Assembly (NCBI GenBank): GCA_964020085.1
Contig: OZ026606.1
Span: 21,838,573-21,902,572, forward strand
Direction of reading: 5' to 3'
Length of the DNA stretch: 64,000 bases
DNA from: Micromussa lordhowensis
Taxonomy: Eukaryota; Cnidaria; Anthozoa; Scleractinia; Lobophylliidae
In this document: one piece after another, positions 10,721-54,144 of the stretch
Position numbering within the stretch: the stretch's first letter is position 1
How the letters are laid out: each line of letters starts with the position of its first letter
The notes under the pieces: model-generated
What the model was told of the DNA's origin: nothing
Databases searched by the model: none
What the model saw: the letters and a program-made list of their open reading frames with translations, nothing else
Position numbers and translations under genes: made by a program

Positions 10721-10833
10721 CTTTGAGACCAGTTTGACCGAACTCAGCCTCGCGTGAACAACACAACTCTCCGCCACCGACTGTCAAGACAACCGCTTTA
10801 TTCCGATCAACAACCAAGAGGAGCATAGACAAC

Positions 10834-16629: not shown

Positions 16630-17072
16630 AAGAAAGATTACAAATACTTCTAATGAACTACAAAGGTTGATTCTCAGTTCTTGAATCGCCCCAAATGTAC
16701 ACGTTTGTGTGTACAAGTAACATTTATGATTCATTTGACACATTTGCCGAAGTTACCTTGCTAAATTTTCTTAATTTAGTTCAAAAACGTCAACCAATGT
16801 TTTGAGATCTCGGAAGGGATTATAGAAAGATCTGAACAGGTCATAAAAATTTACTAAAAACACTCAGTAACAAGTTTCAAAACATCTCTGGTGTAAATTT
16901 ATTTTCTGCAAAAAGGCATTTGTGAAAAAAAGTACATAACATTTTGAATTATACTTTATATTATATTACAATAAAGCTTGTACACTATCTCTACGCCCAC
17001 TACCAAACACTAATACGGCTGCGATAGGAAGTCTAAAATGAAATAGTTTACCAGTTCTACCCTTGATTAATA

Positions 17073-17340
17073 CTAAGAATCACCTCGTGAATCATGTTTT
17101 TCACTTGTGATCATGTTTATTATGTTGTAACAAATTGTGGAGGAAAAGTGAAGTGTAGTAAATTCTTCGTAACGAGTTTTGTCGACGTAACTTAGACGAT
17201 CACCTCGTGTATACTTAGAATCACCTCGTGAATCGTGTTATTCACTTCAGTGATCATGTTAATTATGTTGTAACAAATTGTGGAGGAAAACTGTGAAGTG
17301 TATTAAATTTTTCGTAACGAGTTTTATCGATGTAACTTGC
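17073..17340. repeat. Left-arm tandem duplication downstream of PAP
   Basis: A unit of about 130-140 bp runs from ACTAAGAATCACCTCGTGAAT to GTAACGAGTTTTGTCGACG. It occurs at 17,073-17,212 and again at 17,213-17,340 with small changes. The matching part of the right arm (about 52,370-52,505) has one copy. The duplication therefore arose after the arms separated, or one unit was lost on the right. Confidence 0.8.
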
Positions 17341-17840
17341 GCCTGAAATTCCTCGCCCATAGCTGAACTTCCCTCACTGTTTTTATTCAAATCGTCGATG
17401 AAAATCGTCGGTGTATTTAAAAAAAATAAATTTCCAGTAGATGCGAAACAAGGATCTGGATACGCAAAACATTTACAAACACTACCTTTCAGCAGGTCTG
17501 TAAGCAAAAGAAAATAGCAAATTTATCAACCTTTTAAGTAGAAACTTGCAGCCTTCAGTTCCAGAGTTCTTGACGGTGATTGAATGCTATACAAGAAGAA
17601 TACAGGATCTGACCAGAAACGAAATTCTCCCAAGAGAAATACAAAAAAGGCATGAATATTAGTAGGTAGAATTTCGTTTTTCATCACAAGCTGTTCAGAA
17701 CCAAGCGTCTTTCATACATTAATAAGGTGCAGCCGTGCAGGTCTAATGTTCAAACACACTAAAAACAACGAATCGCAAAGTTTCTTAAAATTTTGAATTA
17801 ACAAGCTATGGCGTTCAAGAGTCTCTCAGGCCCTCGCCGT

Positions 17841-20800
17841 TTAATATTTCACATCCAGAGGTTTAAACGGTCCATGGTGTTCCTGTGATATCCAAATACT
17901 GTCCGTCACTGAACCATCGTAAGCTTTGATTTGTTCCCAGTAGATATGGGTCGAGTTCACTATCCGCAGCTTGCCATAGCCCGCATTTCCTGGGAACCAC
18001 TCTCGGAAGGCGGACCAAGGACCTACCATAAGATTCAATTTCAGTAGGGAAAATATATAGCGGGCAATTGCTGGCAATTGCAAATGGAAACTAGAAAAAG
18101 TTATATCGAGCTGTCTACCCCGAAACCTTCGTGAAACCGTGAACTAGCTAAGGGTACGAGAGTGTCTGGCGTCGTTTTAGTCGAAATAAAGATGCACGAC
18201 GATTCCTACAATCCCGCTAAAACTAAAAACTGTTCAAATTGCAATGGACCTGCAGTAGTATCGAGTTTCAAGGTGAGGTAGTTCCTTATTTTATGCTGAA
18301 TTTTACTTTTCGCTAGAAACCCGAGGGCAGGTAAGATTTTCTGCCATGTTCTGGACTCCTTTAAGTTAGTTATCGGTAGAAAACTAACTAAACTCCAAAC
18401 TAACGTCCAGTAAGAGAATCGAAGCCATTTTTCTACCGTTGAAGAAACCTGCGTCACAAAGACGAGTTGCGCCAAGCAGCGTTTTGACATTTGCACTGGT
18501 ATTAAAAGCAGCATGACAGAGATCTTGACCCAAACGCGAATGAGTGCAGATCCTATGTGCCGTTAATTTAACATGACTGTTTCCAGGCAAATCAGAGCGA
18601 TTTTATATCTTTGTGCTGCGCTGCCTGGATGATTATCAATATGCTACACCAAATGAACAACTCTGTATTCAGTTGCAGTAGCTGATATTGAAGTTTGTGG
18701 CTGTTTGACGTACAAGCAAGTCTGGTATAGGGTAGGGGCTTTTGTGGCTTGTCCAAAGTAGGGTTGCAAAATCATGGTCTAGTATAAGGTATGGTTTCAG
18801 TATTACGGCGGCACACCCCCACCCAAAGATTTCAGGAGTTTCCCACAGGGTTTCCATCTTTTAGGTGTACTTTTAACTTTCCTAAGCTAAGAACACTCCC
18901 TTGTGTAACCACTACATTACACTACCTCTTGGTCCCAACATTGGATTCACACATATTCCATAAGCCTCGTTACAGCCGGCCGCGCCGGATATCACGTGGA
19001 CTGGGGCCTTGGGATTGGTGTAGTTATGAGCCGTCACGGTATCGTTGAAGACTGGCCAGAGGCGCTCGTACGAGTGCTCATGCGCTTCAATGATCAAATC
19101 CACACCGTACTGGAAAAACAACGGCTCGAGGCTAGACATAAAAAAACAGAAAAGCTAGTCACCGCAATTACCAATGATCTGTTTAGTTTAGCTAAATGCA
19201 TCTGTAGTGCAGCTTAACAATTAGTTCAATAACTGATTTGACGAGTTCAGGCTACAAGACAGAACAGAGGAATTTGGTCACACCCCTTCTCTCGTTACAT
19301 GTTTATCCACACTTGCGTCTCGTAAGATGTTTCCCGCACTGGTGCCTCGTTACGTGCTTAGTTTGGGTCTCCAAAGGGATGTTTACCGCGATTGTCTCCA
19401 GCAACAAGCTTCCCCACACCTCCCACACCTGCTTTGTTTCCCATTATATGTGTTTTTTTCCGCGCTTGCATTCCATGTTTTCCCGCGCTTGTTTCCCGTG
19501 ACATACTTTTTCCCGTCCTGGAATCCCGTTAAACTTTTAGTCCCCGCTCTTGCTACCCGTTACTTGCCTGCCTTAACATGTTTTCCCACCCTTGTCTCTG
19601 TTTTCTCCTTTCCTAGGCTTGTGTCCCGTTACATGATATGCTATTGTGGTGGATACGAAGCTATCTATATAAATAATTACGGAATATACGCAGTACGGGT
19701 TTTCCTTTACTACGGCCCGTCAGCAACTCGACAAAAAGCAAGCCCTGAAAGTCCGTCACAAACGTTTTCCCTCCCTTAGAGGTGACTATATACCAACGTC
19801 GTGTATAAAATTCCCTGTACAAATTGTTCGTGGTGTTATATCGGGGAAACCGGCAGAGCTTTCAAAACCCGGAAAAAAGAACATTTGAGAAACACCAAAA
19901 CTGTGGCTAAAGGTTCTAGAATTGCTAATCACGCCTGGTCCAACAACCACGCCATTGATTTTGAAAACGCGTTAATTATTGACAAAGGCACTTTTAGAAC
20001 CAGAAAAAACATTAGAACCATGGCATACCAGAGTTACACCTAACGCAGATAACAATTCTTGTCCGTTACCTGGGCAATACAACATTCTTTTTAACAAACA
20101 TCCATAATTATTATTCAACAAATTGTAACACTATCCAAATATGGTCATGATGCTCTCGATATCTGTCATCCGTTGGTAACAGATATGCGGCGGTATACGT
20201 AGCTTCGTACGTGGGAAGAAAAAGTGAAGTGAGAAAATGTCGACAGAGGGATTTACAAGGATTTAGGCTGTTTTGCTATCAATTTGTAAAATAATAAAAC
20301 AATTATCCTGCTCAATCTCGCGGAATATCGTCTGATTTTAGCCGACTCGGCCTACGGCCTCGTCGGCTAAGTATCAGACGATATTCCGCGCGATTTTGCA
20401 GGATAATTGTTAATTATTTGCATTTTTATTATTTCACAATTCACGGTTTTTATTCAAATTTTCTCATCGCTTTCTTATCATTCATTTTACCCATCAAAGA
20501 CTGACTACAGTACAGGCAGTCGAAAGCTCGTAGTTTCTAATCCTTCTAGCCAGAGATCGCTTTTAAATTTCAACCATTATTATTATCATTATCATCGTCA
20601 TCTTCATCATCATCATCATCATTTACAGTTCACGATCTTGGGAAATTGATTGCGTACTTTATGTTGCCAGTTTCGTAGGACTAGAAGACAAGGCTATAAA
20701 ACAATTAGCGCAACTTCAAACCGGGAGAAAACGTTTTAAGGCAAAACGCTTCCAAAACACGTTGGAGGTTTTAATTATGCTTACAACGGAGGGGTTCACT

Positions 20801-22260
20801 TCCGTCAAGACAAAAAAACTGAACACCTCACCTGTGCCTGACGACAGACTTGAGCGTTGTGCAGTCATCTCTGTCAATGTTGGAGCAGTACATGGGTCTG
20901 TGACCAAACGCAACGATCCATGGCCGCTTGGCTCGGTTCGCGGGTTTGTTTGCCTCCTTGAGGTCGTTTGTTAGCCATTCTAGCTGATCCTGGATCGGAC
21001 CTTTAGTGAAGTATGCTTCGGAAGAGTAGCTGTTATGATGTGAAAAGCAAGGAAGATGGATAGTGAAACCCTTCACATTACTGGCAATAAACAATTATCT
21101 TGCGAAATCGTACAATATTAAATCGCGTGATACTTGATGCCAACTGCCCGCTACAAATCGTCGAACGTAAGTTAGTCTTCAACTAGCAAGGCACTGGGTT
21201 AAGTGGGCTAAAGTCAGATAACATTTCGCGAGGTTGTGGAGGCCAGTTGTTTAATTGTTCAACAAATTACAGCAAAATAATTTGAGCTTATGTAAGATGT
21301 CACCGAGTTTCCTTGAGTTCACTTTCATGGACCGCATGATATCAACATTATGTGCTGATCACAGATAACAAAGGATTTCTTGACGGTATATGGTATCCTA
21401 ACAATTTGTTGAAAAATTCGTTGAACAATATTTGTTGCAGTGATGGTTTTTTATACCAAGCCATGAGATAAAAATTCCACTGAATCGGCAGTCGGTATCC
21501 AGATATCAATTCCTTGCAGATGTCAATCTACATGGCTAACTGGACTGCCTCTACCAGCGGAGATTTTGAAAAAAATTATGTACCATAAAGGGCACTTGTT
21601 TACAAACAGCCCAATTCTCGACATAGCTTGTGTCGAAATCATTTCCTGAGTATTTCGTGAAAATTAAGTTTCTTTCTCCCTCCAAAATCCCCTTGGTATC
21701 CGCTCGGATTGTAATTACATGGTGCAAGCGGTGAACCATTTTACTCTTGAGGGGGTTAGGTGGGGGCTGATTTTGAAAAAAAAAAAAACAATCCTGCAAG
21801 CATACTTGTACCAAAAAAAAATTCATGCACACGACCACTGCCAAAAAAAATTCACGCACGTTCGTTGAGACAAAACAAGCATGTTATAAGGAGAAAACAT
21901 TTCATGCATAAACACGTCCCGAGAAAAATATTTCTCAGTGCTGAAAGGTTTTGAAAAAATCGTGCCTGTACCAAATCACCCTCCCCTCCCCCCCTCAAAA
22001 GCCAAAACTCCCACCCCTAATGGTAATCCTGAGTGTGTACGAACTAACCTGATAAAGTGCACTCTGGCGATGTCGAAGCTGTACCACATTCTATTCAATG
22101 CCATAGGCCATTCAAGCTGCGGCATGGAAAATCTGTACCGGTAATGACTGAAGTTGAAGGGAATTTCTGTAGCAACAACGAAGACACAAAAATTGATCTG
22201 ATAAGTGTATTTTAAATACTACCAATTAGTTTTCCTTAAAAGCCCCTCCTCGAAAATCGT

Positions 22261-22294
<34 letters not shown>

Positions 22295-25200
22295 CTCCAG
22301 TGCGCACGCTATTCATTGGTCACGCACGTGCCACGTCATTTTCAAGCGCGCGCACGGAGTCCAAAACTCAACAAAATATAGAGCTGATGACCTTTGCGTT
22401 AACTTTGTGTGCGAATATTTTTGTTGGATACTCGGTGACCCCCACTTTTTTTTCGGCAGATCAATTCCTTTTCTGATTCTTTCCATTATACTAAAAAACA
22501 AAAAAAAATCTGAGCGTGGGAAGTTTTAATTATTTTTCATATACTACTCAAATAGGGTCGAATTGGTACGCCTATTACAGGTGTGCGTGACTTAAAGTTG
22601 TATTTTTTAAGGCTAATTCTAGCTGATTTTATGACATATGTAGCAAAGATCTATCATATAGGCCTATATATGCTGCGTTAAAAAGACACATAACTTAGAT
22701 ATGATTCTTCAACTTAAACATATGCCGATAGTAATGAATCCGGCCAGAATCGCCTCGAATGACTGGAAATCCTAGAAATGCTATGGTCTGTGATACGCCT
22801 TATCTTCAAAACGAGTTCGGTGACCCCCGATTTTTTTTACGTTTTTAATCTAATCTTATCATTTTCTACCTACAGTCAAAGTTTTAAAAAAATCTGTGCG
22901 TGGGAAGTTTTTGGGCGCGAACGTCCTTAAATCTTTTACCTGTTAAGCGTTTTTGCGCAACTGTCACTCAACTAGAACATTCAGAATGTATATTGTACAA
23001 AAACCAAATGTGATCATATTATTACAAAATAGGATCAAGATAAGTGTTTGATCTTCTCTTGATTATTGATATTGGAGCTAAGCTGCAAAGAAAACAAAAA
23101 TCGAACGTGTGCATCAACAGACGCAGAAAAAAAAAACTTTCTCCGAGTTTGATTACATTGGAATTGGTTATAAATTGATTAAACAAACAAAACCCACCAG
23201 AAATTTAAGAGCGCTTTCAATTCAACCAAATATTCCGAAAATTATCTAATGAGACCAAATGGTACCGAAATTTAAAAGCTTCCAGGAAATACGGAATTGT
23301 TCAATTTTCAATAAGCGAAAATTCCGGAAGGAAAATCAAATGGAACGGAAATTCTCGGTAAACATTTTCCTAAAAATTTGTGTATACTTCGCGAGGTTGT
23401 CCTCTTTTTCCGTAAATTCCTAAAAACGCTGTTCCATTCGTCACTGGTAATATCCGGGAATTCAAACAGGAATTTGTGCCGAATGGAAAGCGCCCTCGTC
23501 AGCTTTCGTTCTAGCGTCTGATTGGTTAGTTTAGTTGTTACCGTGATTTCCAACACACGTCATGTAAGGAATCCGTGCTGCAATGGGCTCAATCCTGTTC
23601 ATAAACGCGTCGCCATTCTACGGGAAAAAAAAAACAGTCAGTAGTGATAGTGCCAGATCACTAAGGAGAAGGGTCTTGATATCACACTAAAGCCTCTTTG
23701 AGATAACGAAATAAACTGTATGGAAGGCAGTCAGAAAAAACGAATTTCCAGACAATCCAAAACTACGACAGAATTGTCCGATCTGATTAGTTCTCAGCAT
23801 GCTCGATAGTAAGCGTTATTTATGAGCGTTCTAAAGACCTATTTATATGACTGTGTAACTGCCCAATTGAGGCCCATTTACACGACAGAAATTTGGTACA
23901 GTAGTTCTACAGCGAAATTTATATCGAGTGGTATACTTAACAATTATTCCATGAGTCTCTTGCATTTTCTCGGTATACACACAAGCCTTTAGGGCTTAGG
24001 CGAATGTGTATACAAAGAAAATACAAGTGACAAGTGGGATATTCCATGGTTTAACACGAGAAGGCATGTAATACCGTCGACTATACAACAACTTTTCTGT
24101 ATTCTGATTGGCTGTATTTTCTATGGCATGGTATAAATCATTTATTCACGCGGGTTGGTTTTCCCGCGCTTTGCGACGGTTTTGCGGATCTGCTTTGGCT
24201 CCGTTGCATTTTTTAGGAAATCTCTTTGGTAGATAATCGCCGCATTATTTGGTGCTGGCCAAAAACATTACAAGATGTTACATTCAAGATCACAGACGTG
24301 CCTCTGTAGTTGAAAGTGACCTGGATAAACGTGAGGGAACGAGAATTACTTCACCGTGGTTTCACGTCAGTAAATTGTAATGTAGATCAAATTAGTGTAT
24401 TTCTCTCCATTTTAAACTCATGGGAGATCATAGTAACTTTGCTTACCAGTCCCCCTTGGGTATTTAGGTCATACGCAAAGTCGCCAGCATGCAACACGGC
24501 CGTGTTATGTCCGGACCTGGCCTCAGAAATAAGCCGATGAAGACAGGGCGCCCCACCAATTCGGCCCATGTCTCCATAAACCAAGAACTGCGGTGACCAA
24601 TCCTGCAAATAGTAGAGAAATGCAATTAGCGCCACCACAGTTAACAGTCAAAGTATAACATTTCGTTTGGCGATAGGTAGAAAAGAGTTTCCAAAACAGT
24701 CTGCTGACTATAGGGGAGTCCACTAAGTGCAGGCTTAAAAAAACAAATGTAGTATTTTTTAGTCACTTGCGTTTTAAGAGGACGCGCGAGAAAAATGCGC
24801 GTCTCTTTCCACGCGCGTGCTACCCGCATCAGTTCTTGTCTGTGCTAGGAACGTCGTTTGTGTGCGATTAGGACCACAACCGTGCTCCCGGTTAGGGGGC
24901 GGGTGGGGTTAGCTTTCGTGATTTTGCGATTGAAGGGACCTGAATACTTGGGAACTTAGCGAGGAGTCACGCAGCTGGTTACGCGCTCGCCTCCCAACAG
25001 CGAGGCATGCACGGTTAGGAATTCCGTTTGTTGTCATTTGTGGCTTGAATGTGTCATCTCGATCTACCCTGCTACCCATTTCTTACTTTTCTTTTGGCTT
25101 GGTCAAATTCTGTGACGATCGACGCGCGCGAGATAGACCTTTGCATCAATGGCGCCCAAATTTGAATGACAATACTTATACATCCTCAGCCTCACATTCA

Positions 25201-28200
25201 TGTGAAAAATCCTTTGTCTACACACCTGATTACGAGGCTAAGGATGTATAAAGAATTGTTATTTAACAATTGGTTCATGCTTTAGCGTGCACTATCGAGT
25301 TATGGAGCACGCGGGAAGTTTGGAGAGCACGAAAGAAGCATAAGAGTTGCCCGAGGCGATAGCCGAGGGAAACTCTAGCTTCTTGAGTGCTCTCCAAACT
25401 TCCCACGTGCTCCATAACTCGATAGTGAACAGCTAAAAGCATGAACCAATTGTTTTATAACATAGCCGATGGAATTGTGCATCAAATCCGACGCGAAAAA
25501 CGGACAACAATATCAGTTTGTGATTGTTGCATTTTACCCGACTGTGAAGCGAATCGCGACGGCGCTGATGCCGAGTCTCCTTTCCTGTTGTTTTTCTCTT
25601 TTTCTGCCTCATTTAAGAACTGTAACCCAAGAGAAAAGGTCGCAAAATTGTCTTCGTTTCGGGACGGGCGGACGGGAAATTAGACGACGTTCAAATCGAC
25701 GTTCAAATTATTCATCCATGAAATATACGGTGACATTTCACTCACAAAACTCACATTCTCCCTTCGGGCGCGGGATACACGGTGCAATAATTGCGCGCAA
25801 AGACTAAATCGCATCGTGTATCCACCCCTAAAATTGTTCCGCGCAATATTGCAGCAGTAGAATTTTCGTCCTTCTTCTGCAACATCGCGCGCAACAAATT
25901 TCAGGTCTTAGAAAAATTTACTTGTGCTTAGTTATTCCAAATTGCACTCGAAATCATTTGATTACCAAAACAAACTGGCAAAAGCCAAAACGGTTCGATC
26001 TGTACTGGCATCAATGCAGGACCGAATGTTTTCCCGATGTTTCTATACCAAAGACATGGCCACCTCATATACTTCAAAATCTTCGTACTCACTCAAAAAG
26101 GAGAGTGATGATCAGATGGACCAATCGCCGGATCAAAAACTAGTCACGGCTGCTTAAAGGAACTTTAAATTAATTGGGCTTAAAAAGATCTTCACTGGCG
26201 GAAAAGAACAACAAGCATCTAGCTTACATTTTACTTTTCTTACCTCGCCCTGGTTCGACGGTTGTATTAAACATAGTTAGAAGAGCTTCCAATTTCTTTC
26301 ATCTGTTTTCTCCGAAGACGAACTTGCTCTCTCATCAAAACTCTTCTTTGCTTTCCTTTGACACATGGTTCGCAGTCACAGTTCGAGAAAGGACAGTGAC
26401 GTTTGTGTCCTTTGAGATTCGATCGCATTCCGTGATTTTTACAGAGCGTGCAAGAAGGCTTGCGTTCCCTTCTTAAGCTTACATTCATTCGCTTCTCGAG
26501 AGAAGATTCCCCCATTTTGTTATGTTGGTATTTGTGAGCTTGAAATAATAGCCTGGCAGCTTAGGTTTCTGTTTTCAAAGGCGACGCCTTAATACGAACC
26601 TGACGGGACGAACGACTTGAGACAAATAAATTGCAAGGCGGTGACTAAACCAGTTATTGGCGCATGTCAGTCAAATCAATCAGAGACGATTGGTCCACAA
26701 CAGTGTGTTCTCGTGCGCAACACGTGCTAAAAGACAAGCTTCAAACTTCTGTCAGGGTTTTTTTCTACATAGTGTTTTAGTTTCACTTTGACCTTTTTTA
26801 GACACATGATCTCGAAAATCCTCTGGTAGCCCCTCCCCCTGTAATGTTTCATTAGGGACCTTAAGCAACGACGACGGCGACGCCAAGGACGACGCTTAGA
26901 AAAAAATGAATTTATATTTTACCGTCGAATTTCGCACATGCCTAGATCTGTTCAGTACGTCTATCGGTCTCAGAACTTGCTCAAGCTTAATATGCAATGC
27001 CCGCGTACAATTACGAAAAATAAGCCGCCGTCGCTCACGTTCTCCAAAATACCCAGAACTTGGTCATTTCACGTTGTCGTTTTATAGAGGACGGCTAAGA
27101 AATGTACCAAGAATTATAACGCACGTGCACAGCTATTGTTCTGCTCACCTTTTGTTTTGTGGCGTTCTCGTTGCCGTCGTGGTTTGCTTAAGGTCCATAT
27201 TTTTTTGTGGGGGGGGGGGGGGGGAATTGAAGGGGCTCATTTAATTAACAATAAAACACTACCAACAGTCAGCTTGCTACTCTTTTTTGTAAAGTACTTT
27301 ACTAGTACTGGTAGGGTTAAACTACACCGGTAACTCACTCTGTCATTTATTGTTCTACTCATGAGAGAAAAAAGGGAGAGTGGAGAACGCGCTTTATAAA
27401 TTTTTTGCTCGAAATGGATGGGGGACTTAACGGGGAAATTAACAAATGTTTGGGAACTTAAATGACTGAAAAATCCCGGTCCATTGTTTTAAACACCAAC
27501 TCTTCAATCGCTTTCTTCATATCGGGTTTTTCGCTTCTCTCCGTAACTAAAAACCAAATTGCTGTGACTTTTTCCTTTAAAATGTTTGGATAACATCGCG
27601 AAAGTTATTGGAGACTTTCTTTGTTTCAAAAGACCACATGCAAACTCGAAAAAAAAGTGTCCAAAAATCACTTCAAATTAAATTGCGGCCTCGGGTGGCA
27701 TTAACATGCATCCTAAAAAGCTATTGGGCGGTGGCCTCATGGTTAGTGCGCTCGACTCCGGAGCTCGAGCCCTGGCCTGTGACATTGCGTTGTGTTCTTA
27801 GGCAAGACACTTAACTCTCACGGTGCCTCTCTCCACCCAGGTGTATAAATGGGTACCGGCGAATTTAATGCTGGGGGTAACCCTGCGATGGACTGGCATC
27901 CCATCCAGGGGGGAGTAGAAATATTCCTAGTCACTTCATGCTACAGAAACCGGGATAAGCTCCGGCCTGATGGGCCACTTGGCTCGTATGCAGACTTTAC
28001 CTTTACCTTTAAAAAGCTATAACCCCTGGAAAAAACTTCAAACCTTTGCAGCCTGTGCAGTTTTTACTCGAAAAAACAACATACTAAATTACTCTTCTTT
28101 TCAACCAAAATGATGGCAACAGAAACGGAAAACCCAGTGTGTTTGTTTTTGTCACTCATTCTTTCCATATGAAAGTCATATATATCGAAATCACGTGCCC

Positions 28201-31200: not shown

Positions 31201-31213
31201 ATTGACCAAGTGT

Positions 31214-31246
<33 letters not shown>

Positions 31247-32326: not shown

Positions 32327-32336
32327 GTCGCCGGCA

Positions 32337-32768
32337 AGACACCTTAAGATCGAGGTTTACCGCGGACCGCAAACCGCGGTTTCAGGTTTGCGGTTTGTCG
32401 TTTGCGGTATGCCTCCGTCGTGTATTAAGAATCGCGTGATAACGATAATGTGCTTCCATGCCGCCATATTGGATTTCAACGTTGTGCAGCAGTTGTCGTT
32501 CAAACCTTGTAAAAAACAAAACTTTTGTCTTCTTAATATTAAAATTCATATGAAATGAAAGAAAAAGGTTTTTTCTGTATATCAGTGCCAGGCATACGTG
32601 GGATCACAAAACATTCATGCAAATAAAAGTTGACGTAAATGACTTACGCGAAAACCTACCTCTTGCCGTCGAAAACGTGGAAAATTTCCCGTAAACGCGA
32701 GGTTGAAGTCTGGTCACGTGACCTGCAGAGGTTTGCAGTCCGCGGTAAACGTCGATCTTAAGGTGTCT
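32337..32768. mobile_element. 432-bp TIR element in the spacer between the two arms
   Basis: The left end AGACACCTTAAGATCGAGG is matched in reverse by the right end, CGTCGATCTTAAGGTGTCT. The pairing continues through TTTACCGCGGAC to give TIRs of about 40 bp. There is no transposase frame. TTAA lies 7 bp in from each edge, so either the element is longer than a TTAA-type core or its flanks happen to be inverted repeats too. It starts 11 bp upstream of the left PAP start codon and ends within 2 bp of the point where right-arm homology begins inside PAP exon 1. Confidence 0.85.
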
Positions 32769-32785
32769 CAGATTCTCCGAGTGAA

Positions 32786-41700: not shown

Positions 41701-41957
41701 AACTCGGAAATGGTCTATTATAGCACCGTGTATCCGGGCCATATTAAGGATTATTATTTATTCAAAATATTTTCAAAGTATTTTCTGATTGGTTAAAGCC
41801 ACACGCATAATTCACCATAGCCAGCTGCTGTTGACCAAATTTGCAAAGAATTTTGTCATATTCAACCGATGACGTCAAAAGTGCAGCCCGCTGCAGATTA
41901 TTGAACCATTGACATCAAGGTAGGTTTACAAGTTTGAGCGAAGAAAATATAATGAAT

Positions 41958-41988
<31 letters not shown>

Positions 41989-44900: not shown

Positions 44901-47900
44901 TCGAGGAGGGGCTTTTTAAGGAAACCTAACGGCAAGTATTTAAAATACAATTATAAGATCTATTTTGTCTTTTGTCTTCGTTCTTGCTACAGAAATTCCC
45001 TTCAACTTCAGTCATTACCGGTACAGATTTTCCATGCCGCAGCTTGAATGGCCTATGGCATTGAATAGAATGTGGTACAGCTTCGACATCGCCAGAGTGC
45101 ACTTTATCGGGTTAGTTGGTACACACTCAGGATTAACATTAGGAGTGGGACTTTTGGCTTTTAAGGAGGGGAAGGGGAGGGTGATTTGGTACAGGTACGA
45201 ATTTTTTAAAACCCTTTCAGCACTAGGAAATATTTATCTCGGGACGTATGCATGAAGTGTTCTCTCCATATAACATGCTTCTAGCTTTTGTCTCACCGAA
45301 CGTGCGTTAATTTTTTTGGGCAATGCTCGTGTGCATGGATTTTTTTTTGGTACAAATGTGCTTGCAAGATGGTGCTTTCAAAATCTGCCCCCACCCCACC
45401 TCCCTCAAGAGTCAAGTGGTAGCGGGTACCAAGGGGATTTTGTGAAAAGAAACTTGATTTTGACGAAATACTCAGGAAATGATTTCTCCTCAAGTTGTGT
45501 CGAGAATTGGGCTGTTTGTAAACAAGTGCCGTAAATGGTACATAATTTTTTTTCAAAATCTCCACTGGTAGAGGCAGTCCAGTTAGTAATTTAGATTGAC
45601 CTGCAAGGAATCGATAGGTCTCTGGATATCGACTGCCGATTCAGTGGAAATTTGATCTGATACATGAAATTGGCTTGGTATACAAACCATCACTGCAACA
45701 AATATTGTTCAATGAATTTTTCAACAAATTGTTAGGATACCATATATCGTCAAGAAATCCTTTGTTATCTGTTATCAGCACATAATAGGGACTTTAAGAT
45801 ACGCTACGGCGAGGTTCTACTACGGCTACTTTCGCCGTTAGGGACTTGGCTGGCAACGGCGTTTTACCCGCCAAACTGAAATGATTAAGATTTTGCTGTA
45901 CGGCAACAGCATGTGCAGCCTGTACGTGTCTTAACAAAATGAATTCGCTCAAGGAAACCAGAGATTTTATTCTATTTCATACGAAATAGGCTTGAATAAT
46001 GACGATGACGTCCTTCCCCTGTAACCGTCTTACCTCTCCCAGAACTTAGATTTGCATTTTAGAACTTGATAGAACCGCCTGTAATTCCAACCACAAAACA
46101 AAATATCAACACTGATAGAAAGCTCCGTTTCAGCACGGATTTGTTCATAAAACGATTAAGTACGTGATAAGCCCGAAAATACATATAGATTACTTCATAG
46201 AAAGTGCGACGTACGGATTTTTATTCACGAGTTGCAAGACTTTGGAAAACGAACGAGTGAGCGCAGCGAACGAGTGAGTTTTCCAAAGTCTTGCAACGAG
46301 TGAATAAAAATCCGTACAAAGCACTTTCTATGCTGTAATTTGTTTATTGTATATATAACGAGAATTAAACAGACCCACTAGATCAGTTTTAGTTTTTTTC
46401 CGACACCATAAATTTACATGCAGAACGCTGAGAACGTAATGAATGACCGAGCGTAATGAAAAACAAATCCGCTTTCCAGTCCAGATACAGGCGGACAACG
46501 AGCCTACACAAGCTTAAATATAATAGGGGAAAATTCGTAAATACATAGTGAGAAATCTTTTTGTTTGTCCATAATTAAGCTTACTGTCAGATTCAATATG
46601 TCATAGCGACGCTTCGCGCTGTGCAAAGTCACAGAAAGACAAATCAGACTCTGTTGACTTACACTGTTTATTTGAATGTTCCTCCTTGATTGTTGTTGGC
46701 TTTCTGGTGTTAAATTTACTTCCTCGGTTTCTTGAATGGCTATTGATTCTCAAACTGAAGTTCTAGCGCTCAAGATATATGTTGGATATATTCCATTGCT
46801 GCTTTTCCGAAAGTGAAGTAAAACGGGAACCGAAGCCATGTTATCGAGACACAAACTTCAAGCGGACGCTGATTTCAAGCCCGCGCTTCTCGGGAGCCAT
46901 TTGAGTGCTTAACTCTGATTGGCTAAGTGATTCTATCCTGAACAGTGATTGGTTATATTTTCACATGTTGCTATACGCGAAGCTGATTTGGACGTATCAC
47001 TTTTTCACCTGTGGAAATAATTCTATTTGCAAGGTTTATTGCCTAAAATTCTCGCTATATATACAATAAAGAACTTTTCATCATAATAAAATACATTTTG
47101 AACAGCAATAAACAATTATAGCTCAGATTACTAAATACGAAGCTTTCTTATCTACGGCTGTTCGGCCCGATACTAATGACTGAACTGATCATCTCGTGGT
47201 AGGTGTTAAAATCGTTGAAATTTTCTGTACAAATGACAAAGTAACAATCATCTTACAAATGAATCAGATTTTTTATGATTGAGTACTTTATCTTCAAACT
47301 AGGCTGTTCAAACAGTGAAAAAAGCGCTAAAATTAGGAGGAAACAGCAGACTTGTACTCACGTAGTGAAGAGTACGTGCAACCAGGCACTTTCCCGTAGT
47401 AGAAAGCAAAGCTACGGCGGGAAAGCCGTACTGGTACGCGCGTCATGACGTCACCGGAAGTGATCTTCCCTCTCTGCCGCCTTACTACAGCCTAGCCGTA
47501 CCATATCTTAAAGTCCCTATTGTTGATATCATGCGGTACATGAAAGTGAGCTCAAGAAAACTCGGTGACATCTTGCATAAGCTCAAATTAGTTTGCTGTA
47601 ATTTGTTGAACAATTAAACAACTGGCTTTCACAACCTCGCGAAAAGTTATCTGGCTTTAGCCCACTTAACCCAGTGCCTCGCTAGTTGAAGACTAACTTA
47701 CGTCCGACGATCTGTAGCGGGCAGTTAGCATCAAGTATTACGCGATTTAAAATTGTACGATTTCGCAAGAAAATTGTTTATTGCCAGTAATGTGAAGGGT
47801 TTCACTATCCATCTTAACAGCTACTCTTCCGAAGTATACTTCACTAAAGGTCCGATCCAGGATCAGCTAGAATGGCTAACAAACGACCTCAAGGAGGCAA

Positions 47901-50900
47901 ACAAACTCGCGAACCGAGCCAAGCGGCCATGGATCGTTGCGTTTGGTCACAGACCCATGTACTGCTCCAACATTGACAGAGATGACTGCACAACGCTCAA
48001 GTCTGTCGTCAGGCACAGGTGAGGTGTTCAGTTTTTTTGTCTTGACGGAAGTAAACCCCTCCGTTGTAAGCATAATTAAAACCTCTAACTTGTTTTGGAA
48101 GCGTTTTGCCTTAAAACGTTTTTCCTCGGTTTGAAGTTGCGCTAAATGGTTTATAGCATTGTCTTCTAGTCCTGCGCAATCAGTTGTCAAAGATCATGAA
48201 CTGAAGATGATGATGACGATGACGATAGTAATAATAATAATAATAATAATAATTACGATAACAGTGAAACTAACAGTGTCAAACCATATGGACAAAGATT
48301 AAAACAAAACTGTCAAAGGTAGACTGAAGGAGTCGAAGGTATTAGGTCGGTTTTTGTGTGATTGCCGAAAGACCAAAACCAAAGCGACTACCACGCCGGC
48401 CAATCACAGGACGGGAAAAAAGTATGTCACGGGAAACAAGCGAGGGAAGACATGTAATGGGATGCAAGCGCTGAAAAGACACATGTAATGGGAAACAAAG
48501 TGGGTTTGGTAGGTGTGGGGAAGCTTGTTGCTGGAGAAAATCGCGGTTAACATCCATTTGGAGACCAAAACCAAGCACGTAACGAGGCACCAGCGCGGGA
48601 AACATCTTATGAGGCGCAAGTGTGGGAGAACATGTAACGAGAGAAACTGCGAGAGGAGGGGTGTGACCAAATTCCTCTGTTCTGTCTTATAGCCTGAACT
48701 CGTCAAATCAGTCATTGAACTAATTGTTAAGCTTCACTGCAGATGCATTTAGCTAAGCTTAACAGTTCATTGGTAATTGCGGTGACTAGCTTTTCTGTTT
48801 TTATATCTCTAGCCTCGAGCCGTTGTTTTTCCAGTACGGTGTGGATTTGATCATTGAAGCGCATGAGCACTCGTACGAGCGCCTCTGGCCAGTCTTCAAC
48901 GATACCGTGACGGCTCATAACTACACCAATCCCAAGGCCCCAGTCCACCTGATATCGGGCGCGGCCGGCTGTAACGAGGGTTATGGAATATGTGTGACTG
49001 CAATGTTGGGACCAAGAGGTAGGCTCACTCACTCACTCACTCACGCCCTCTACACCTAAGTGGCATGTAGGGCAGCAACGCGCTCCCTCCACTTCTGCCG
49101 ATCCCTTGCCATAAGCTTGATGGCTCCCTAGGTCTTCCCCATCTCCTTGATTTCTTTCTCCACTGTCCGTCGCCACGTGATCTTGGGGCGGCCCTCTTGC
49201 GTTTCCCTTCTGGCGTCCAATGTAAAGCAGTTTAGCCGGTAGGCAATTTGGTAGGCAATGTAGTGGTTACACAAGGGAGTGTTCTTAGCTTAGGAAAGTT
49301 AAAAGTACACCTAAAAGATGGAAACCCTGTGGGATACTCCTGAAATCTTTGGGTGGGGGTGTACCGCCGTAATACTGAAACCATACCTTATACTAGACCA
49401 TGATTTTGCAACCCTACTCTAGACAAGTCACAAAAGCCCCTACCCTATACCAGACTAGATTGTATGTCAAACAGCCACGAACTTCAATATCAGCTACTGC
49501 AACTGAATGCAGAGTTGTTCATTTGGTGTAGCATATTGATAATCATCCAGGCAGCGCAGCACAAAGACATAAAATCGCTCTGATTTGCCTAGAAACAGTC
49601 ATGTTAAATTAACGGCACATAGGATCTGCAGTTATTCGCGTTTGGGTCAAGATCTCTGTCATGCTACCAGTGCAAATGTCAAAACGCTGCTTGGCGCAAC
49701 TCGTCTATGTGACTCAGTTGTGGCGTCTTTGTGGCGCAGCGGTAGAAAAGTGGCATCGATTCTCTTACTGGACATTAGTTTGGAGTTTAAGTCCATCAGT
49801 TTCTACTGATAACTAACTTCCAAGGAGTCCAGAACATGGCAGAAAATCTGACCTGTCCTCGGATTTACAGCGAAATGCGATCGGCTCAAGCGCACCTGAT
49901 CTTTAAGTAAAATTCAGCACAAAATAAGGAACTGCCTCCCCGTGAAACTCGATACTACTGCAGGTCCACCGCAATTTGAATAGTTTTTAGTTTCAGCGGG
50001 AATGTAGGAATCGTCCTGCGTCTTTATTTCGACTAAAACGACGCTAGACACCCTCGTACTCTTAGCTAGTTCACGGTTTTCACGAAGGTTTCGGGGTAGA
50101 CAACACGCATATAACATTTGCCAGTTTACATTTGATATCTTGGAGTGAACAAAGACAACACAGCGTAAGTATCGCGGTGACCCTAAGTACTTCATGTATC
50201 CCTTCCAGATATTATAGAGTATCTTATGCACTATAATGAGGATAAATATACTATGCTACGTTCTAAATACACTATGATAAGGGATACACCAAGTACTTAC
50301 CGTGGTGACTGCACAACGCACCGCTGACAGACAAACGACTCAACAAGCTCGAAACAAGCGCACCTCCTTGAAGAGACGAAGAACAGTGTAGAAATACCGC
50401 TTCATACAGCGACCTTTCCGTTGACTTCAAAATAGTAAGCCTTAACCGACAAACTGATCTATCAGTTCATGAAAGATCATAATCATTGCATTGAACTGTC
50501 AGAGAGCTTCAAGGATTATCCACAATTTTAAGTGAAATTTGGTACTAAAATAGTTTTTTCTTTCTCTCTTTACATTATTCATCCATTGACGCTGTTAACT
50601 CTTGACAGAGTTATGAGTTTCTTAAGAAACTCTTGGGTTCATCGGCGGCAAGTGAAGTATTTAATCAACTTGACGTCGTTAAAGTAAATTAAGCGCCTTA
50701 CCTAGTTTATGAAGCTGACATTTCACCGGAGCGTAAGCCAACGGCAACAACAACAACAACTATAACAACAACAACAACAACAATAGTAACAACAACAATA
50801 ATAATAATAATAACAACAACAACAACAACAATAACAACAACAATGATCTTAAGGCCCCCTACGCACTACGCCGGGGGAATTTGAAAACGCAGCTTTATTT

Positions 50901-51925
50901 CTACGGTTAGGATTACTGTCCACACTAATCCGTCACGAAAACGGAGCTTTTCGAAAACGCTCTTCAAACCGGAGGAATTTTGAAAACGGAGCTTTTGGAA
51001 AACGATGGCATCACGATGATCACGTGATTTCCCTGCCCGAGATTTTCTCAAACTGCGTTTTTAATTTCCTCCGGCGTAGTGTTGACGCGGCCTAATCTGT
51101 GTTCTTTTTCATGAGTGGAGTCCAATTCTGTCTGTAATCATACAAGTGATAACAAAATCGGACGACCGCGCAGCGGGGGTCCGATTTGTTAATCACGAGT
51201 ATGATTACACGGACAGAATTGGACGACACAAAGTCTTATTACCAATTAATCATAAAAATTACACTTTTCGACGAAAGAAGAGTAGCCAAGATATGAAAGA
51301 AAGGGAAAATTTGCATTGAAATACTGACAAAGAAGAAGTAAATTCTTTCATGTCGCTCTGAAATTGAGATTAGTTGATTTTGAACTACAACTTTGAATGT
51401 GATTGGCTTATTGAACTGTCCGATAACAAACTGTCCTTTAACAAACTGTCCGATAACAACTTGGCAAGTGAATTAGTGAAAAATAGGAGTTTTTTAAACC
51501 AATCACAATCGAGGAAATTGTAATTTTTATGATTCACATAATTACAGCCCTCCGTTGGTATTTGTTTCGTAATGTTTTGCACGTTTATCCAGCAGCAATT
51601 GCCCGCTGTCTATTTTCCAAACTGACATTGAAAATAAATCACTGGTTGTATTTATTACTCCAATCCGCGCATTCACCCCTAGTCCGCAGAAAACCAGCAC
51701 AAATAAATCTAGAGTTCAAGTGTTTGTCTTCATCTTATGCTAGGTCCTTGGTCCGCCTTCCGAGAGTGGTTCCCAGGTAATGCGGGCTATGGCAAGCTGC
51801 GGATAGTGAACTCGACCCATATCTACTGGGAACAAATCAAAGCTTACGATGGTTCAGTGATGGACAGTATTTGGATATCACAGGAACACCATGGACCGTT
51901 TAAACCTCTGGATGTGAAATATTAA
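32786..51925 (+). CDS. Purple acid phosphatase, right copy, exon 1 truncated (no signal peptide)
   Basis: Exons: 32786-32950, 36548-36640, 42713-42868, 44184-44259, 44993-45110, 47821-48018, 48813-49018, 51744-51925. Exon lengths and phases equal those of the left copy except exon 1, which begins where the arm begins. The first in-frame ATG matches residue 55 of the left protein and would give 397 aa. All metal-ligand motifs remain (GDMG, GDFAYD, GNHE, AFGHRP, AHEHSYER), and there is no internal stop or frameshift. Missing are the signal peptide and the first part of the N-terminal domain, so any product would not be secreted by the usual route. Differences from the left copy include Ser to Gly at the exon 5/6 junction, Cys to Ser and His to Gln in exon 3, and several changes near the end of exon 7. 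It may be a recent pseudogene, a neofunctionalised copy, or an allele misplaced by assembly. Confidence 0.8.
33240..34075. repeat. Foldback-like element in right PAP intron 1
   Basis: TTCCGGAGATATTTAAGTTT and GATGACGTCATATTCTC-like sequence on the left recur inverted on the right (GAATATGACATCATCACTT, then AAACTCGAATATCTCTGGAA). The outer parts AAACAGT and TAAAACGCCGTTTACTGTTT also pair loosely. The hairpin is long and imperfect, and the interior has no frame of interest. Confidence 0.5.
34051..34880 (-). pseudogene. 5'-truncated LINE, C-terminal end of ORF2 (right arm only)
   Basis: On the minus strand, two overlapping frames (34,911-34,438 and 34,483-34,211) encode the tail of a non-LTR retrotransposon polyprotein. 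Features include LAPYYLSDLLPKL, WNSLDLDVRNS, DHTRLRLGFSCLREYLF, then TESVRHFFLFCPRY with R..LL spacing. A frameshift near 34,470 separates them. The 3' end runs into AAATAAAAAAAAAATCG at about 34,051. The 5' truncation point coincides with a 39-bp exact repeat of nearby intron sequence (34,842-34,880 and 35,205-35,243). The left arm lacks it. Confidence 0.75.
36032..36153. repeat. Foldback element, CTCAGACC/GGTCTGAG family
   Basis: GTCATTACAGGGAAATCTCAGACC is matched in reverse by GGTCTGAGATTTCCCTGTAATGAC around a CTCAGCCCTCAGACCTCAGC loop. A related element (TTAACCGAGAGTGAGGTC ends) lies at 62,333-62,472. No coding capacity. Confidence 0.8.
36953..37247. repeat. Interrupted direct duplication in right PAP intron 2
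   Basis: A block of about 80 bp from CGCGTAATTGT to TTTAAAACAATGGA occurs at 36,953-37,036 and again at 37,167-37,247, almost unchanged. The left arm has one counterpart near 27,485-27,560. Between the copies lies sequence matching left 27,590-27,660, so the second copy restarts an already copied stretch, as in a template switch. Confidence 0.75.
37450..37800. repeat. Two-unit tandem duplication with C-rich tracts
   Basis: GTAGCAAGC...TTTTATTGTAAATTAAATGAGCCCCTT...ACTTGAAACATTACAGG...GGAG occurs twice (about 37,459-37,590 and 37,625-37,780). The second copy carries a long interrupted C run. The left arm has one unit, split by the 344-bp MITE. Confidence 0.7.
38077..38328 (+). CDS. DM-domain gene, right copy, with an extra codon in the zinc module
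   Basis: An 83-residue frame, nearly identical to the left copy and in the same place inside PAP intron 2 on the PAP strand. It keeps CTLCKNHG, HKRHC, CDCEPC and REQVRLRRKQ. It reads SNLIKGHKR where the left copy and the usual family consensus have the shorter LKGHKR form. The two histidine ligands are therefore 9 residues apart instead of 8, which would strain the interlocked zinc sites. Other changes are Leu to Val in QRRV-MREQ and Gly to Ala in KEI-SSS. The stop at 38,326-38,328 is followed 23 bp later by a consensus donor (GAG/GTAAGA, exon end 38,351). DM proteins are nuclear regulators of sexual and tissue differentiation. Confidence 0.75.
   Translation: MGESSLEKRMNVSLRRERKPSCTLCKNHGMRSNLIKGHKRHCPFSNCDCEPCVKGKQRRVVMREQVRLRRKQMKEIASSSNYV
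38798..39299 (+). CDS. Candidate downstream exon of the right DM gene (uncertain)
   Basis: An acceptor-like TCAATTTGCAG ends at 38,797. Two overlapping frames then look coding. One runs from 38,800 to 39,150 (VKTELSSPLTNEHRSLEDEK). The other is open from 38,829 to the stop at 39,299 (HFASQFSVPRQQSFNCSSC, then FMSDNSAFVKYCVHSPRTES). Ser/Pro-rich composition fits a transcription factor tail. Joining from the donor at 38,351 does not continue the DM frame: that frame already stops at 38,326 and would stop again soon after the junction. Either a frameshift has occurred or the segment is a decayed exon. AATAAA at 39,617-39,622 gives a plausible poly(A) signal. The segment is absent from the left arm. 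Confidence 0.35.
40348..40447. repeat. Perfect 49-bp-arm palindrome with 2-nt loop
   Basis: The left arm runs from TCATCCTCGG to AAAAATTCG (40,348-40,396), the loop is CC, and the right arm runs from CGAATTTTT to CCGAGGATGA (40,399-40,447). I found no mismatch over 49 base pairs. Frames across it are mirror artefacts. It lies in a roughly 1.4-kb part of right PAP intron 2 (about 39,997-41,440) that is missing in the left arm. Confidence 0.95.
40699..41121 (+). CDS. Hydrophobic open frame, 140 codons, not recognised (doubtful)
   Basis: The frame is rich in Phe, Leu, Ile and Val, with several stretches long enough to be membrane segments (for example FFLLAAFVFISYLTHFAV). I recognise no family. 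The T-rich strand composition alone tends to produce such frames. It lies in a right-arm-only insertion flanked by palindromic elements, so it is more likely repeat DNA than a gene. Confidence 0.12.
   Translation: MFFRKRRMLAPFVFKIKMRQVLRTFCWVLLCVLLRSTYGSIKFNFSTGILLCMYISIQSSQVYFFLLAAFVFISYLTHFAVTTLVIFAELCILLCYEVFALKISVKGFNLRVIFVRHFVCLGPILCELSILFAIDFTFFH
41218..41740. mobile_element. 523-bp TIR element GGCCCGGATACACGG...CCGTGTATCCGGGCC
   Basis: The termini GGCCCGGATACACGGT and ACCGTGTATCCGGGCC are perfect inverted repeats of about 16 bp. A second foldback is nested at about 41,548-41,715 (CCATTTCCGAATTACC against GGTAACTCGGAAATGG). No transposase frame. A rearranged relative occupies 25,769-25,905 in the left arm. 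Confidence 0.85.
41962..42083. repeat. Foldback element in right PAP intron 2
   Basis: GGAGGGTGCTATCCACC and GGTGGATAGCACCCTCC pair perfectly around GAGGCCGAAGGCCAA. The outer CAATTATTGAAT and ATTCAATAATTG also pair. No coding capacity. Confidence 0.8.
43330..43455. repeat. Foldback element shared by both arms (right copy)
   Basis: ACCATGGAATATCCCACTTG and TTTGTATACACATTCGC pair with GTGTGTATACCGAGAAA and CATGGGATATTCCATGGT. It is the counterpart of the left-arm hairpin at 23,935-24,060 and occupies the same intron. Confidence 0.75.
45786..47519. mobile_element. 1.73-kb nonautonomous TIR element (right arm only)
   Basis: The ends TAGGGACTTTAAGATACG and CATATCTTAAAGTCCCTA are inverted repeats. 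The left arm at about 21,340-21,355 has the uninterrupted site (reverse complement CACATAATGTTGATATC). The target duplication is short, probably AT or TA, and cannot be fixed to the base. The interior has no long frame. It contains a strong foldback at 46,195-46,335 (ATTCACGAGTTGCAAGACTTT against AAAGTCTTGCAACGAGTGAAT). It lies in PAP intron 5. Confidence 0.85.
46195..46335. repeat. Foldback nested in the 1.73-kb element
   Basis: AGAAAGTGC, GTACGGATTTTTATTCAC and GACTTTGGAAAAC pair with GTTTTCCAAAGTC, GTGAATAAAAATCCGTAC and GCACTTTCT. The centre is an imperfect GAACGAGTGAGCG repeat. It is about 60 bp per arm and close to perfect. Confidence 0.85.
49024..49232 (-). pseudogene. LINE 3' tail inserted next to the exon 7 donor (right PAP)
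   Basis: On the minus strand this encodes GRPKITWRRTVEKEI and RQKWRERVAALHAT, the conserved C-terminal tail of the LINE family also found at 55,560-55,740. It ends in (GTGA)n, seen on the plus strand as CTCACTCACTCACTCAC at 49,024. The insertion begins five bases after the GT of the PAP exon 7 donor and leaves AGAG/GTAGGC intact. GTAGGC is repeated at the far end, suggesting a target duplication. The left arm lacks it. Confidence 0.8.
50744..50842. repeat. (CAA)n/(TAA)n microsatellite
   Basis: About 100 bp of AAC and AAT trinucleotides in right PAP intron 7, next to the MITE at 50,853. It has no equivalent in the left arm. Confidence 0.9.
50853..51092. mobile_element. 240-bp MITE with 3-bp TAA target duplication (right arm only)
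   Basis: GGCCCCCTACGCACTACGCCGG at the left is matched in reverse by CCGGCGTAGTGTTGACGCGGCC at the right, with inner pairing of AAAACGCAG and CTGCGTTTT. TAA lies on both sides (CTTAA/GGCC and GGCC/TAATC). A 3-bp TWA-type duplication is typical of PIF/Harbinger elements. No transposase. Confidence 0.75.
51121..51223. repeat. Foldback element in right PAP intron 7
   Basis: TCCAATTCTGTCTGTAATCAT is matched in reverse by ATGATTACACGGACAGAATTGGA, and ATCGGAC by GTCCGAT. The loop is GACCGCGCAGCGGGG. It is absent from the left arm. Confidence 0.8.
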
Positions 51926-52729
51926 ACGGCGAGGGCCTGAGAGTCTCTTGAACGCCATAGCTTGTTATTTCAAAACTGTAAGAAACTTTTAGTATGTTTG
52001 AGCATTAGCTTAGTGTATGAATGACTCTTGGTGTTAAACAGCTTGTGATGAAAAACGAAATTCTACCCTCTAATATTCATGCGTTTTTTGTATTTAATTT
52101 CTCTTGGGAGAATTTCGTTTCTGGTCAGATCCTGTATTCTTCTTGTATAGCATTCACTCCCCCTCAATAACTCTCGAAAGGCTGCAAGTTTCTACTTAAA
52201 AAGTTAATACATTTGCGTATAGACCTGCTGAAAGGTAGTTTTTTGTGAATGTTTTGCGTATCCTGGTCCTTGTTTTCGCATCTACTGGAAATTTAAATTT
52301 TTTTTTACATACACCAACGATTTTCATCGACGATTTGAATAAAAATAGTGAAGGAATGGGCGAGCAATTTCAGGCGCAAGTTACATCGATAGAACTCATT
52401 ACGAAACATTTACTACACTTCACTTTTCCTCCACAATTTGTTACAACATAATAAACACGATCACAAGTATATAACACGATTCACGAGGTGATTCTAAGTA
52501 TGAATCAAGGGTAGAACAGGTTAACTATTTCATTTTAGACTTCCTATCGCAGCCGTATTAGTGTTTGGTAGTGGGCGTAGAGATAGTGTACAAGCTTTAT
52601 TGTAATATAATATAAAGTGTAATTCAAAATGTTATGTACTTTTTTCACAAATGCCTTTTTGCAGAAAATAAATCAACACCAGAGGTGTTTTGCCACTTGT
52701 TACTGAGTGTTTTAGTAAGTTTTTATGTA

Positions 52730-52833
52730 CTGTTTAAAACACGAGCAGCAGTGTTTTATCGGGTTTAAAAACACGAGGCGTAGCCAAGTGTTTTTAAACC
52801 CGATAAAACACGTGCTGCGAGTGTTTTGAACAG
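52730..52833. repeat. Foldback element in the right-arm 3' flank of PAP
   Basis: CTGTTTAAAACACGAGCAGCA and GTGTTTTATCGGGTTTAAAAACAC pair with GTGTTTTTAAACCCGATAAAACAC and TGCTGCGAGTGTTTTGAACAG. It belongs to an arm-specific insertion of about 420 bp (52,729-53,146). That insertion also holds repeated GATCTTTATATAAAGATC palindromes at 52,978-53,045. Confidence 0.85.
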
Positions 52834-53367
52834 CTTCAAAAATAGCTTCAAAAATCCGCGATAACACCTACCTGCGAATTTTTCTATTGTTTCAAAAACC
52901 CGAGAAAACACGTGCATGCGAATTCTTCTGCGGCTTCGAAAACCTGAGAAAACGCGTGCATTGAGAACAATTGATTGAGATCTTTATATAAAGATCACAC
53001 GGAGATCTTTTTATAAAGATTACGTGTGATCTTTATATAAAGATCATGGTAGTCGTTCTCATTTTTACCAGGTATAAAGGTTCATGCACGTGATCAATTT
53101 GACGTCTCTGATAGGCTCATGTGCTTATGAATTATTAATGAGTTTTTGAAGATCTTTTTAGATCTTTCTATAATCCCTTCCGAGATCTCAAAACATTGGT
53201 TGACGTTTTTGAACTAAATTAAGAAAATTTAGCAACGCAATTTCGGCGAATGTGTCAAATGAATCATAAGTATTACTTATACACAAAAACGAGTACATTT
53301 GGGGCGATTGAAGAAATGAGAATCAACCTTTGTAGTTCATTTGAAGTACTTGTAATCTTTCTTATTA

Positions 53368-53643
53368 CAAGGAAAATATCACTCGATGTATTACTTGTCC
53401 TTAAAAATGTAGAATGTATCACGGGTAAGAGAGGTTATCCCACATACTTGAATTACTTTTGGATCACTCCGCTTTTGGAAAGACAACCTTGCTCACGTGG
53501 GCAGCCAAGCAACTTTACGCAAATGATTTGAAAAGGACTATCCGGGAAATATATGGGAGATTAATTCGCTAATGTACTCTTCAAAGGGAACACACTGGTT
53601 CATACAGAGACCATAAGTAATACATCGAGTGATATTTTCCTTG
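53368..53643. mobile_element. 276-bp element with perfect 29-bp TIRs at the outer edge of the right arm
   Basis: The left terminus CAAGGAAAATATCACTCGAT...ACTT (53,368-53,396) is the exact reverse complement of 53,615-53,643. Its first base is where homology to the left arm ends. The interior has no meaningful frame. Confidence 0.85.
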
Positions 53644-53951
53644 CAACTTTTCACGCAACTTGCCAAACTCTTTCACAGGACTTTTCAACTGTTGTAGCAT
53701 TTTCCAAGTTAACTAGATGTATACCTGCGCTCACTCGGGCTTTCTGTTGGAAAGAAACTGTTTTTTGTGCCTGCATTTGCCTAAGCCTTTCATGCAACCA
53801 TTGGTTTATCTTGTAACTGTTTTTCTGTTTTTGGTATGCCAGAGATGTAAAACGTGTGCCCGAGCGGGCATGATGGAGCCATCTTGCCCGTTCGGGACTA
53901 CCCGCCTTGTCCCGCAAGAAAAATTTTCCCAAAAGCCATATAATAAATCCT

Positions 53952-54066
53952 TTATTGACCAAGCTTGTTCGGTCAAGATGGCTTGATATTGGCCTCGATC
54001 GTTTCTTTTGCGTCTTTATGGACCTCGACTCCGTCTCGGTCCATAAACACCCAAAAAAAGGAACTC

Positions 54067-54109
<43 letters not shown>
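53952..54109. repeat. Foldback element TTATTGACCAAGC...GCTTGGTCAATAA
   Basis: TTATTGACCAAGCTTGTTCG, GTCAAGATGGCTTGATATTGG and GGACCTCGACTCCGTC pair with their inverted counterparts. A second copy in opposite orientation, with the same GAGCGGGCA-rich flank, lies at 31,199-31,351 in the left PAP intron 1. It forms the 5' flank of the LINE at 54,145. Confidence 0.8.
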
Positions 54110-54144
54110 CCCATACTTATTGACATCAGAGGGAGAGCAGGAAA

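Follow-up and report, generated by a model that had tools for sequence, protein, structure and literature searches.

Introduction

Adjacent gene duplications are abundant in corals. In Porites lobata and Pocillopora cf. effusa, tandem duplicates make up almost a third of the predicted genes (PMC10236652), and these pairs resemble the locus described here in that the adjacent copies have diverged beyond what is seen between alleles. Our locus lies in a 64,000-nucleotide stretch of the stony coral Micromussa lordhowensis (Lobophylliidae; assembly GCA_964020085.1, contig OZ026606.1, positions 21,838,573 to 21,902,572), which was analysed as a whole and is called the window hereafter; positions are those of the window unless a contig is named. 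It consists of two large arms in inverse orientation, each with the eight exon positions of an ACP7-type purple acid phosphatase (PAP) and with a DM-domain exon inside PAP intron 2. Judged from its sequence, it is very probably a real and old head-to-head segmental duplication, the two copies of which have diverged and decayed unequally. The locus thus belongs to the adjacent segmental gene duplications and is not a gene-converting palindrome. What sets the window copies apart from the tandem duplicates of other corals is the head-to-head layout and the presence of a nested gene; the main text of PMC10236652 uses neither “inverted” nor “opposite”.

Several inverted arrangements outside the corals offer a comparison. 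The long inverted repeats of Caenorhabditis also place a divergent pair of paralogues across a short spacer, but the arms of the described example measure 2.2 kb, are 99.7% identical and are maintained, while the window arms, of 16–20 kb, diverge freely (PMC1803023). In the same source, the loss of symmetry or a deletion at the center is cited as a stabilizer of long inverted repeats. The palindromes of the human Y chromosome share with our locus the basic form of a large inverted repeat with genes, but their arms are kept more than 99.9% identical through gene conversion (PMC3723533), whereas those of the window are 8.6% apart. As to DM-domain genes in stony corals, the Y-linked GddmrtC of Goniopora djiboutiensis is a full gene with both a DM and a DMA domain and is nearest to AmDM1, in contrast to the window gene, which is of a truncated, DM-domain type (PMC10194864). 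In the open-licence literature we found no coral inverted duplication with a DMRT gene, and none of the matches listed was, by title, a cnidarian nuclear palindrome; an open-licence search for inverted segmental duplications in Scleractinia assemblies returned only mitochondrial insertions in Hydra.

Anatomy of the Inverted Duplication

Chained blastn alignments pair the left arm (16627–32375, minus strand) inversely with the right arm (53366–32730 in matching order, plus strand) through 23 colinear pieces, confirming the two large head-to-head arms that a preliminary description of this DNA had claimed. The chain covers 9,790 of the 15,750 bases of the left arm, and the extra length of the right arm consists of stretches that it alone possesses. 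A global alignment of the arms (73.7% overall) pairs unrelated inserts by force, and chained local alignments were used instead. Within 284 kb that include the window, 50 kb of them masked, the chain of these two arms is by far the largest inverted one, with 8,965 aligned bases against 2,071 for the runner-up.

At the center, the main inverted blocks are separated by 32181–32769, and it is this gap that had earlier been given as a spacer of about 590 bp. A further inverted match of 39 bp, between 32337–32375 and 32730–32768, narrows the true, unduplicated spacer to 354 bp (32376–32729), with only a 15-bp match elsewhere in the window. Most of the remainder is accounted for by 156 bp (32181–32336, minus strand) that are present in the left arm only; they hold the start codon, the signal peptide and part of the 5′ untranslated region of the left PAP. 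This stretch is gone from the right arm, while its coding part is kept in full-length relatives, and the loss fits the stabilization by central deletion cited in PMC1803023.

Both arm limits are sharp. The left arm ends at 16627 and the right arm at 53366. Immediately beyond the latter limit lies a segment of 276 bp (53368–53643), the inverted ends of which match perfectly over 29 bp. The segment may be a transposon, but no second copy was found in the 283 kb of non-N sequence examined. Beyond the limits, the outer flanks of 16.6 kb and 10.6 kb share a single 41-bp match (E 0.001) in an orientation wrong for alleles, in line with the earlier statement that the flanks are unrelated.

A fold-back element is present in two copies that are 93% identical, one in intron 1 of the left arm (31185–31444) and one beyond the right arm (53859–54124).

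The Two Phosphatase Copies

The left PAP gene (17841–32326, minus strand) has eight exons, at 32326–32000, 29305–29213, 24602–24447, 23617–23542, 22166–22049, 21029–20832, 19131–18926 and 18022–17841, and encodes 451 amino acids. The right copy (32771–51925, plus strand) has its eight at 32771–32950, 36548–36640, 42713–42868, 44184–44259, 44993–45110, 47821–48018, 48813–49018 and 51744–51925. All seven introns are GT–AG in each arm with phases matching between the arms, as the preliminary description had it.

The N-terminus of the left protein is hydrophobic, looks like a signal peptide by eye and aligns with full-length relatives; exon 1 matches PF16656 (E 3.4e-10). Overall, the left PAP is 79–83% identical to four full-length relatives (P0011–P0014, two of them from named corals); among named corals the identity is 82% for Porites lutea, 79% for Acropora millepora and 88%, over 53% of the query, for Desmophyllum pertusum. 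The sequences GDMG, GDFAY, GNHE, GHRP and AHEH, which we take to be the metal-site motifs of PAP, are all found in both copies. Most likely, the left gene would encode a working phosphatase, while the right copy would be a duplicate that is redundant or in partial use.

The notion of two PAP genes holds for the eight exon positions but not for the first exon on the right, where both the start codon and the signal peptide are gone and the copy begins inside exon 1. A TAA at 32759–32761 shuts its frame 12 bp upstream, and it is only at the sixth shared codon that an ATG occurs in frame (32786).

Over the shared 1,209 bp the two copies differ at 20 codons (dS 0.039, dN 0.011). When polarized by five relatives (three named corals together with P0011 and P0013), four derived replacements are assigned to the left branch and five to the right, a further one being ambiguous, although some of the polarized sites rest on just two or three of the five. 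A neutral right branch would be expected to carry between 18 (from dS) and 41 (from noncoding divergence) replacements (P ≤ 8e-4). As only 5–6 are seen, the count points to constraint on the right PAP for most of its history, and therefore to a loss of the start that was probably late, or else to a new first exon. The latter would go together with a new function of the right PAP, the product of which would be intracellular for want of a signal peptide, or would be made from a transcript spliced from the new exon. The low number of replacements would suit such a product, as would the eight open exons with intact splice sites and the acceptor-like ..tgtctcag that the deletion left before the coding part. 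Yet a recent truncation accounts for the same numbers, the frame is shut 12 nt upstream, and no upstream exon was seen, though no systematic search for one was made; we consider a new function rather unlikely, while giving it some weight.

The Nested DM Gene

The DM exons nested in PAP intron 2 score against PF00751 with E values of 7e-17 on the left and 1.5e-15 on the right. On the left, exon 1 (26267–26515, minus strand) is an 82-residue open reading frame (ORF) that ends early, in ..SSNYV and a stop; on the right (38077–38328, plus strand) an additional Ile codon within the DM domain brings the ORF to 83 residues, and the frame closes early at the same stop. None of nine aligned relatives has an insertion at the site of this Ile, although in P0009 there is one five residues beyond it. 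The early end results from a 4-bp insertion common to both copies, which brings in the stop ahead of an intact splice donor.

How much has been lost can be seen from the relatives. In the predicted proteins of five corals (P0130, P0134, P0138, P0139 and P0157) the DM exon is followed by a common tail that maps to a second exon, and neither window copy has this full two-exon coding region. A remnant of exon 2 persists on the right (38797–39271, plus strand), broken into three frames with two 1-bp deletions relative to an intact paralogue; on the left, exon 2 was looked for and not found. Of the nested DM gene described earlier for each arm, what stands is the DM exon in intron 2 of both. A complete DM gene per arm was considered and is ruled out by the two-exon relatives and the early stop in both copies. 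The closest named relative is from Orbicella faveolata, with 90% identity. Together with the PAP relatives it points to a stony coral as the source of the DNA, and none of the proteins listed was similar enough to come from this very species. The precomputed domains of the relatives are PF00751 alone or none, and no relatives were found in the viral contigs and the bacterial and archaeal genomes scanned.

The short ORF itself is nearly the same in the two arms. Only 2 of 249 bases differ, both being replacements, in addition to the inserted codon, whereas the noncoding rate predicts 20 differences (P = 4e-7). The surrounding block (26152–26851, minus strand, paired with 38443–37745) is itself less diverged, with 16 differences at 443 noncoding sites against 613 at 7557 elsewhere (Fisher p = 2.6e-4), and the contrast between the ORF and the noncoding sites of its own block is weaker (p = 0.025). 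Any one of three causes could account for the near-identity: selection acting on a DM-only product, a conserved promoter of the gene, or conversion over a short tract. The DM ORFs may encode a short DNA-binding protein. There is a known precedent for a DM domain that lacks the rest of the protein, namely DM-W of Xenopus; the likeness lies in the DM domain standing alone, with the window ORFs known from sequence only. Searches that combined DM-W with other terms matched no open-licence paper.

A Second DM Cluster About 1 Mb Away

The DM search was extended to the whole assembly (580.8 Mb in 1,383 contigs, the window lying on contig C12 of 25.8 Mb), where counts are lower bounds. At least 19 DM matches were found: two are those of the window, three with 70% identity lie about 1 Mb away, and the other 14 reach 49% or less. 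The three paralogues (L010–L012; C12:22873553–22893562) are arranged as +,−,+; their inverted arms measure about 4.9 kb and are 93% identical, and no PAP was found near them in the 40 kb examined. In all three, two exons splice to give an uninterrupted frame (245, 250 and 245 residues). Exon 1 (264 bp) is identical across the three, exon 2 differs by 1.5–1.9%, and introns and flanks differ by 0.9–7.5%. Since this second cluster is also inverted and lies on the same chromosome, the DM family has been amplified twice by inverted duplication on one chromosome.

Inverted triplications of the +,−,+ form also arise in origin-dependent inverted-repeat amplification (ODIRA), a yeast-tested model that uses short interrupted inverted repeats, while the coral cluster has only a 6-bp match at its breakpoints (PMC4689423). 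Here TCTTCC and its complement stand within 2 bases of both breakpoints of the inverted junction. Because the 121-bp neighborhoods contain five inverted matches of six bases, none longer, and just one of them is at the breakpoints, only the position of the match is suggestive, and template switching at short inverted repeats may be put forward for this array in a suggestive sense only. It could further be imagined that, in a twice-amplified family, the PAP-nested DM-only proteins, being conserved, vie for DNA sites with the intact paralogues of the second cluster, much like Xenopus DM-W and possibly in a sex-linked region, a scenario by analogy that we regard as quite improbable.

Divergence, Age and Reality of the Duplication

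The noncoding parts of the arms differ at 613 of 7557 sites, a Kimura two-parameter (K2P) distance of 0.086, which does not agree with the recent duplication supposed in the preliminary description. The block-by-block comparison proposed there as a way to look for gene conversion places 14 of the 21 blocks that have over 40 noncoding sites at 6–10% (range 3.3–12.9%), with no arm-wide homogenization. For comparison, coral heterozygosity is typically 1.07–1.96%, with 0.80, 0.86 and 1.59% in three species (PMC11370458) and 2.3% and 1.14% in two further corals (PMC10236652). The divergence of the arms, at 8.6%, exceeds this published range of 0.8–2.3%. With exons and introns colinear in opposite orientation, flanks that are unrelated and a divergence more than allelic, the locus has the properties of an inverted segmental (tandem) duplication.

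One alternative is an artefact, in which the assembly would have joined two divergent haplotypes of a single PAP/DM locus head to head. Coral assemblies do retain allelic duplicates (PMC10236652), and the assembly holds at least two DM copies of the window type. A near-identical direct duplication also lies nearby, at C12:21935617–21957459 and 22085973–22105072, about 150 kb apart; it shows 107 mismatches in 21,568 aligned columns (0.5%), a further piece from 21966734 included, and looks like retained haplotypes or very recent copies. A join of alleles is nonetheless unlikely, and we hold it to be improbable for our locus, because the divergence is above the allelic level, the flanks share nothing where alleles should run on, and the window is free of N. 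Chimeric fold-back reads, for their part, are expected to yield near-identical arms. The earlier argument against a haplotig join is in this way borne out, with duplication as the more likely origin.

A sex-chromosome-type palindrome, with arms homogenized by gene conversion and guarding a sex-determining DM gene, would be another reading. It could draw on the inverted arms with their DM-domain ORF, the fewer noncoding differences of the DM block, the two inverted DM clusters on a single chromosome, and the Y-linked dmrt of Goniopora. The arms, however, are far from the near-identity of the human Y palindromes, the DM gene is truncated in both, and the Goniopora gene has a DMA domain as well and resembles AmDM1. 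We see hardly any chance for this reading, and the earlier comparison with sex-chromosome palindromes under gene conversion is not supported. A recent palindrome with conversion along the whole arm was likewise tried and is ruled out by the noncoding divergence.

In trees with 10 PAP and 22 DM relatives, picked from longer match lists, the two window copies of each gene are sisters (support 100/99 for PAP and 99/97 for DM). As the copies of each gene thus exclude the relatives in the trees, the duplication would be specific to the lineage as sampled, or else homogenized.

It is worth setting out what speaks against an old and real duplication. Synonymous differences in PAP (10 of 262) are below the noncoding level (613 of 7557; p = 0.010), so that selection on the exons or local conversion is possible and the age of the duplication is uncertain; a firm date is out of reach because the two measures disagree. 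The presence of at least two near-identical copies of the window DM gene in the assembly is also the number that a join of two alleles would give. That the DM gene was nested before the duplication is an assumption, the nesting being known from this species. Finally, the duplication is known here from assembled sequence.

Proposed History

Taking the locus as an old duplication, we would reconstruct its history as follows. The DM gene probably had been reduced to a DM-domain-only ORF ahead of the duplication, because the 4-bp insertion is common to both copies. A segment of at least about 16 kb, with the PAP gene and the DM gene in its second intron, would then have been copied next to itself in opposite orientation, probably when replication switched template from one short inverted repeat to another. 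The arms then drifted to 8.6% noncoding divergence, each of them gaining insertions and losing sequence. The left arm has retained a complete, secreted-type PAP, while the start and signal peptide of the right PAP were lost near the center, as might be expected if central asymmetry stabilized the structure. DM exon 2, by then untranslated, decayed, and the DM-only ORF stayed almost unchanged.

Other Features of the Window

In the left flank there is an HMG-box ORF at 10738–11664 (plus strand; PF00505, E 1.6e-23), the putative SoxB of the preliminary description, and a pair of direct repeats of about 180 bp each, 94.5% identical, at 4175–4546. The right flank contains a LINE-like reverse transcriptase (54349–55395, plus strand; PF00078) split over two frames. 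An Rfam scan at the gathering threshold and a tRNA scan of the window gave no match.

Implications

The locus would offer an example of a head-to-head duplication in a coral followed by unequal decay. It also gives an order of losses, in which a DM frameshift shared by both copies would come first and the duplication second, with exon 2 and the start of one PAP disappearing afterwards. Sex determination in corals is little known. With truncated and intact DM genes paired on one chromosome, the role that truncated DM proteins may have in corals becomes an easy question to ask.

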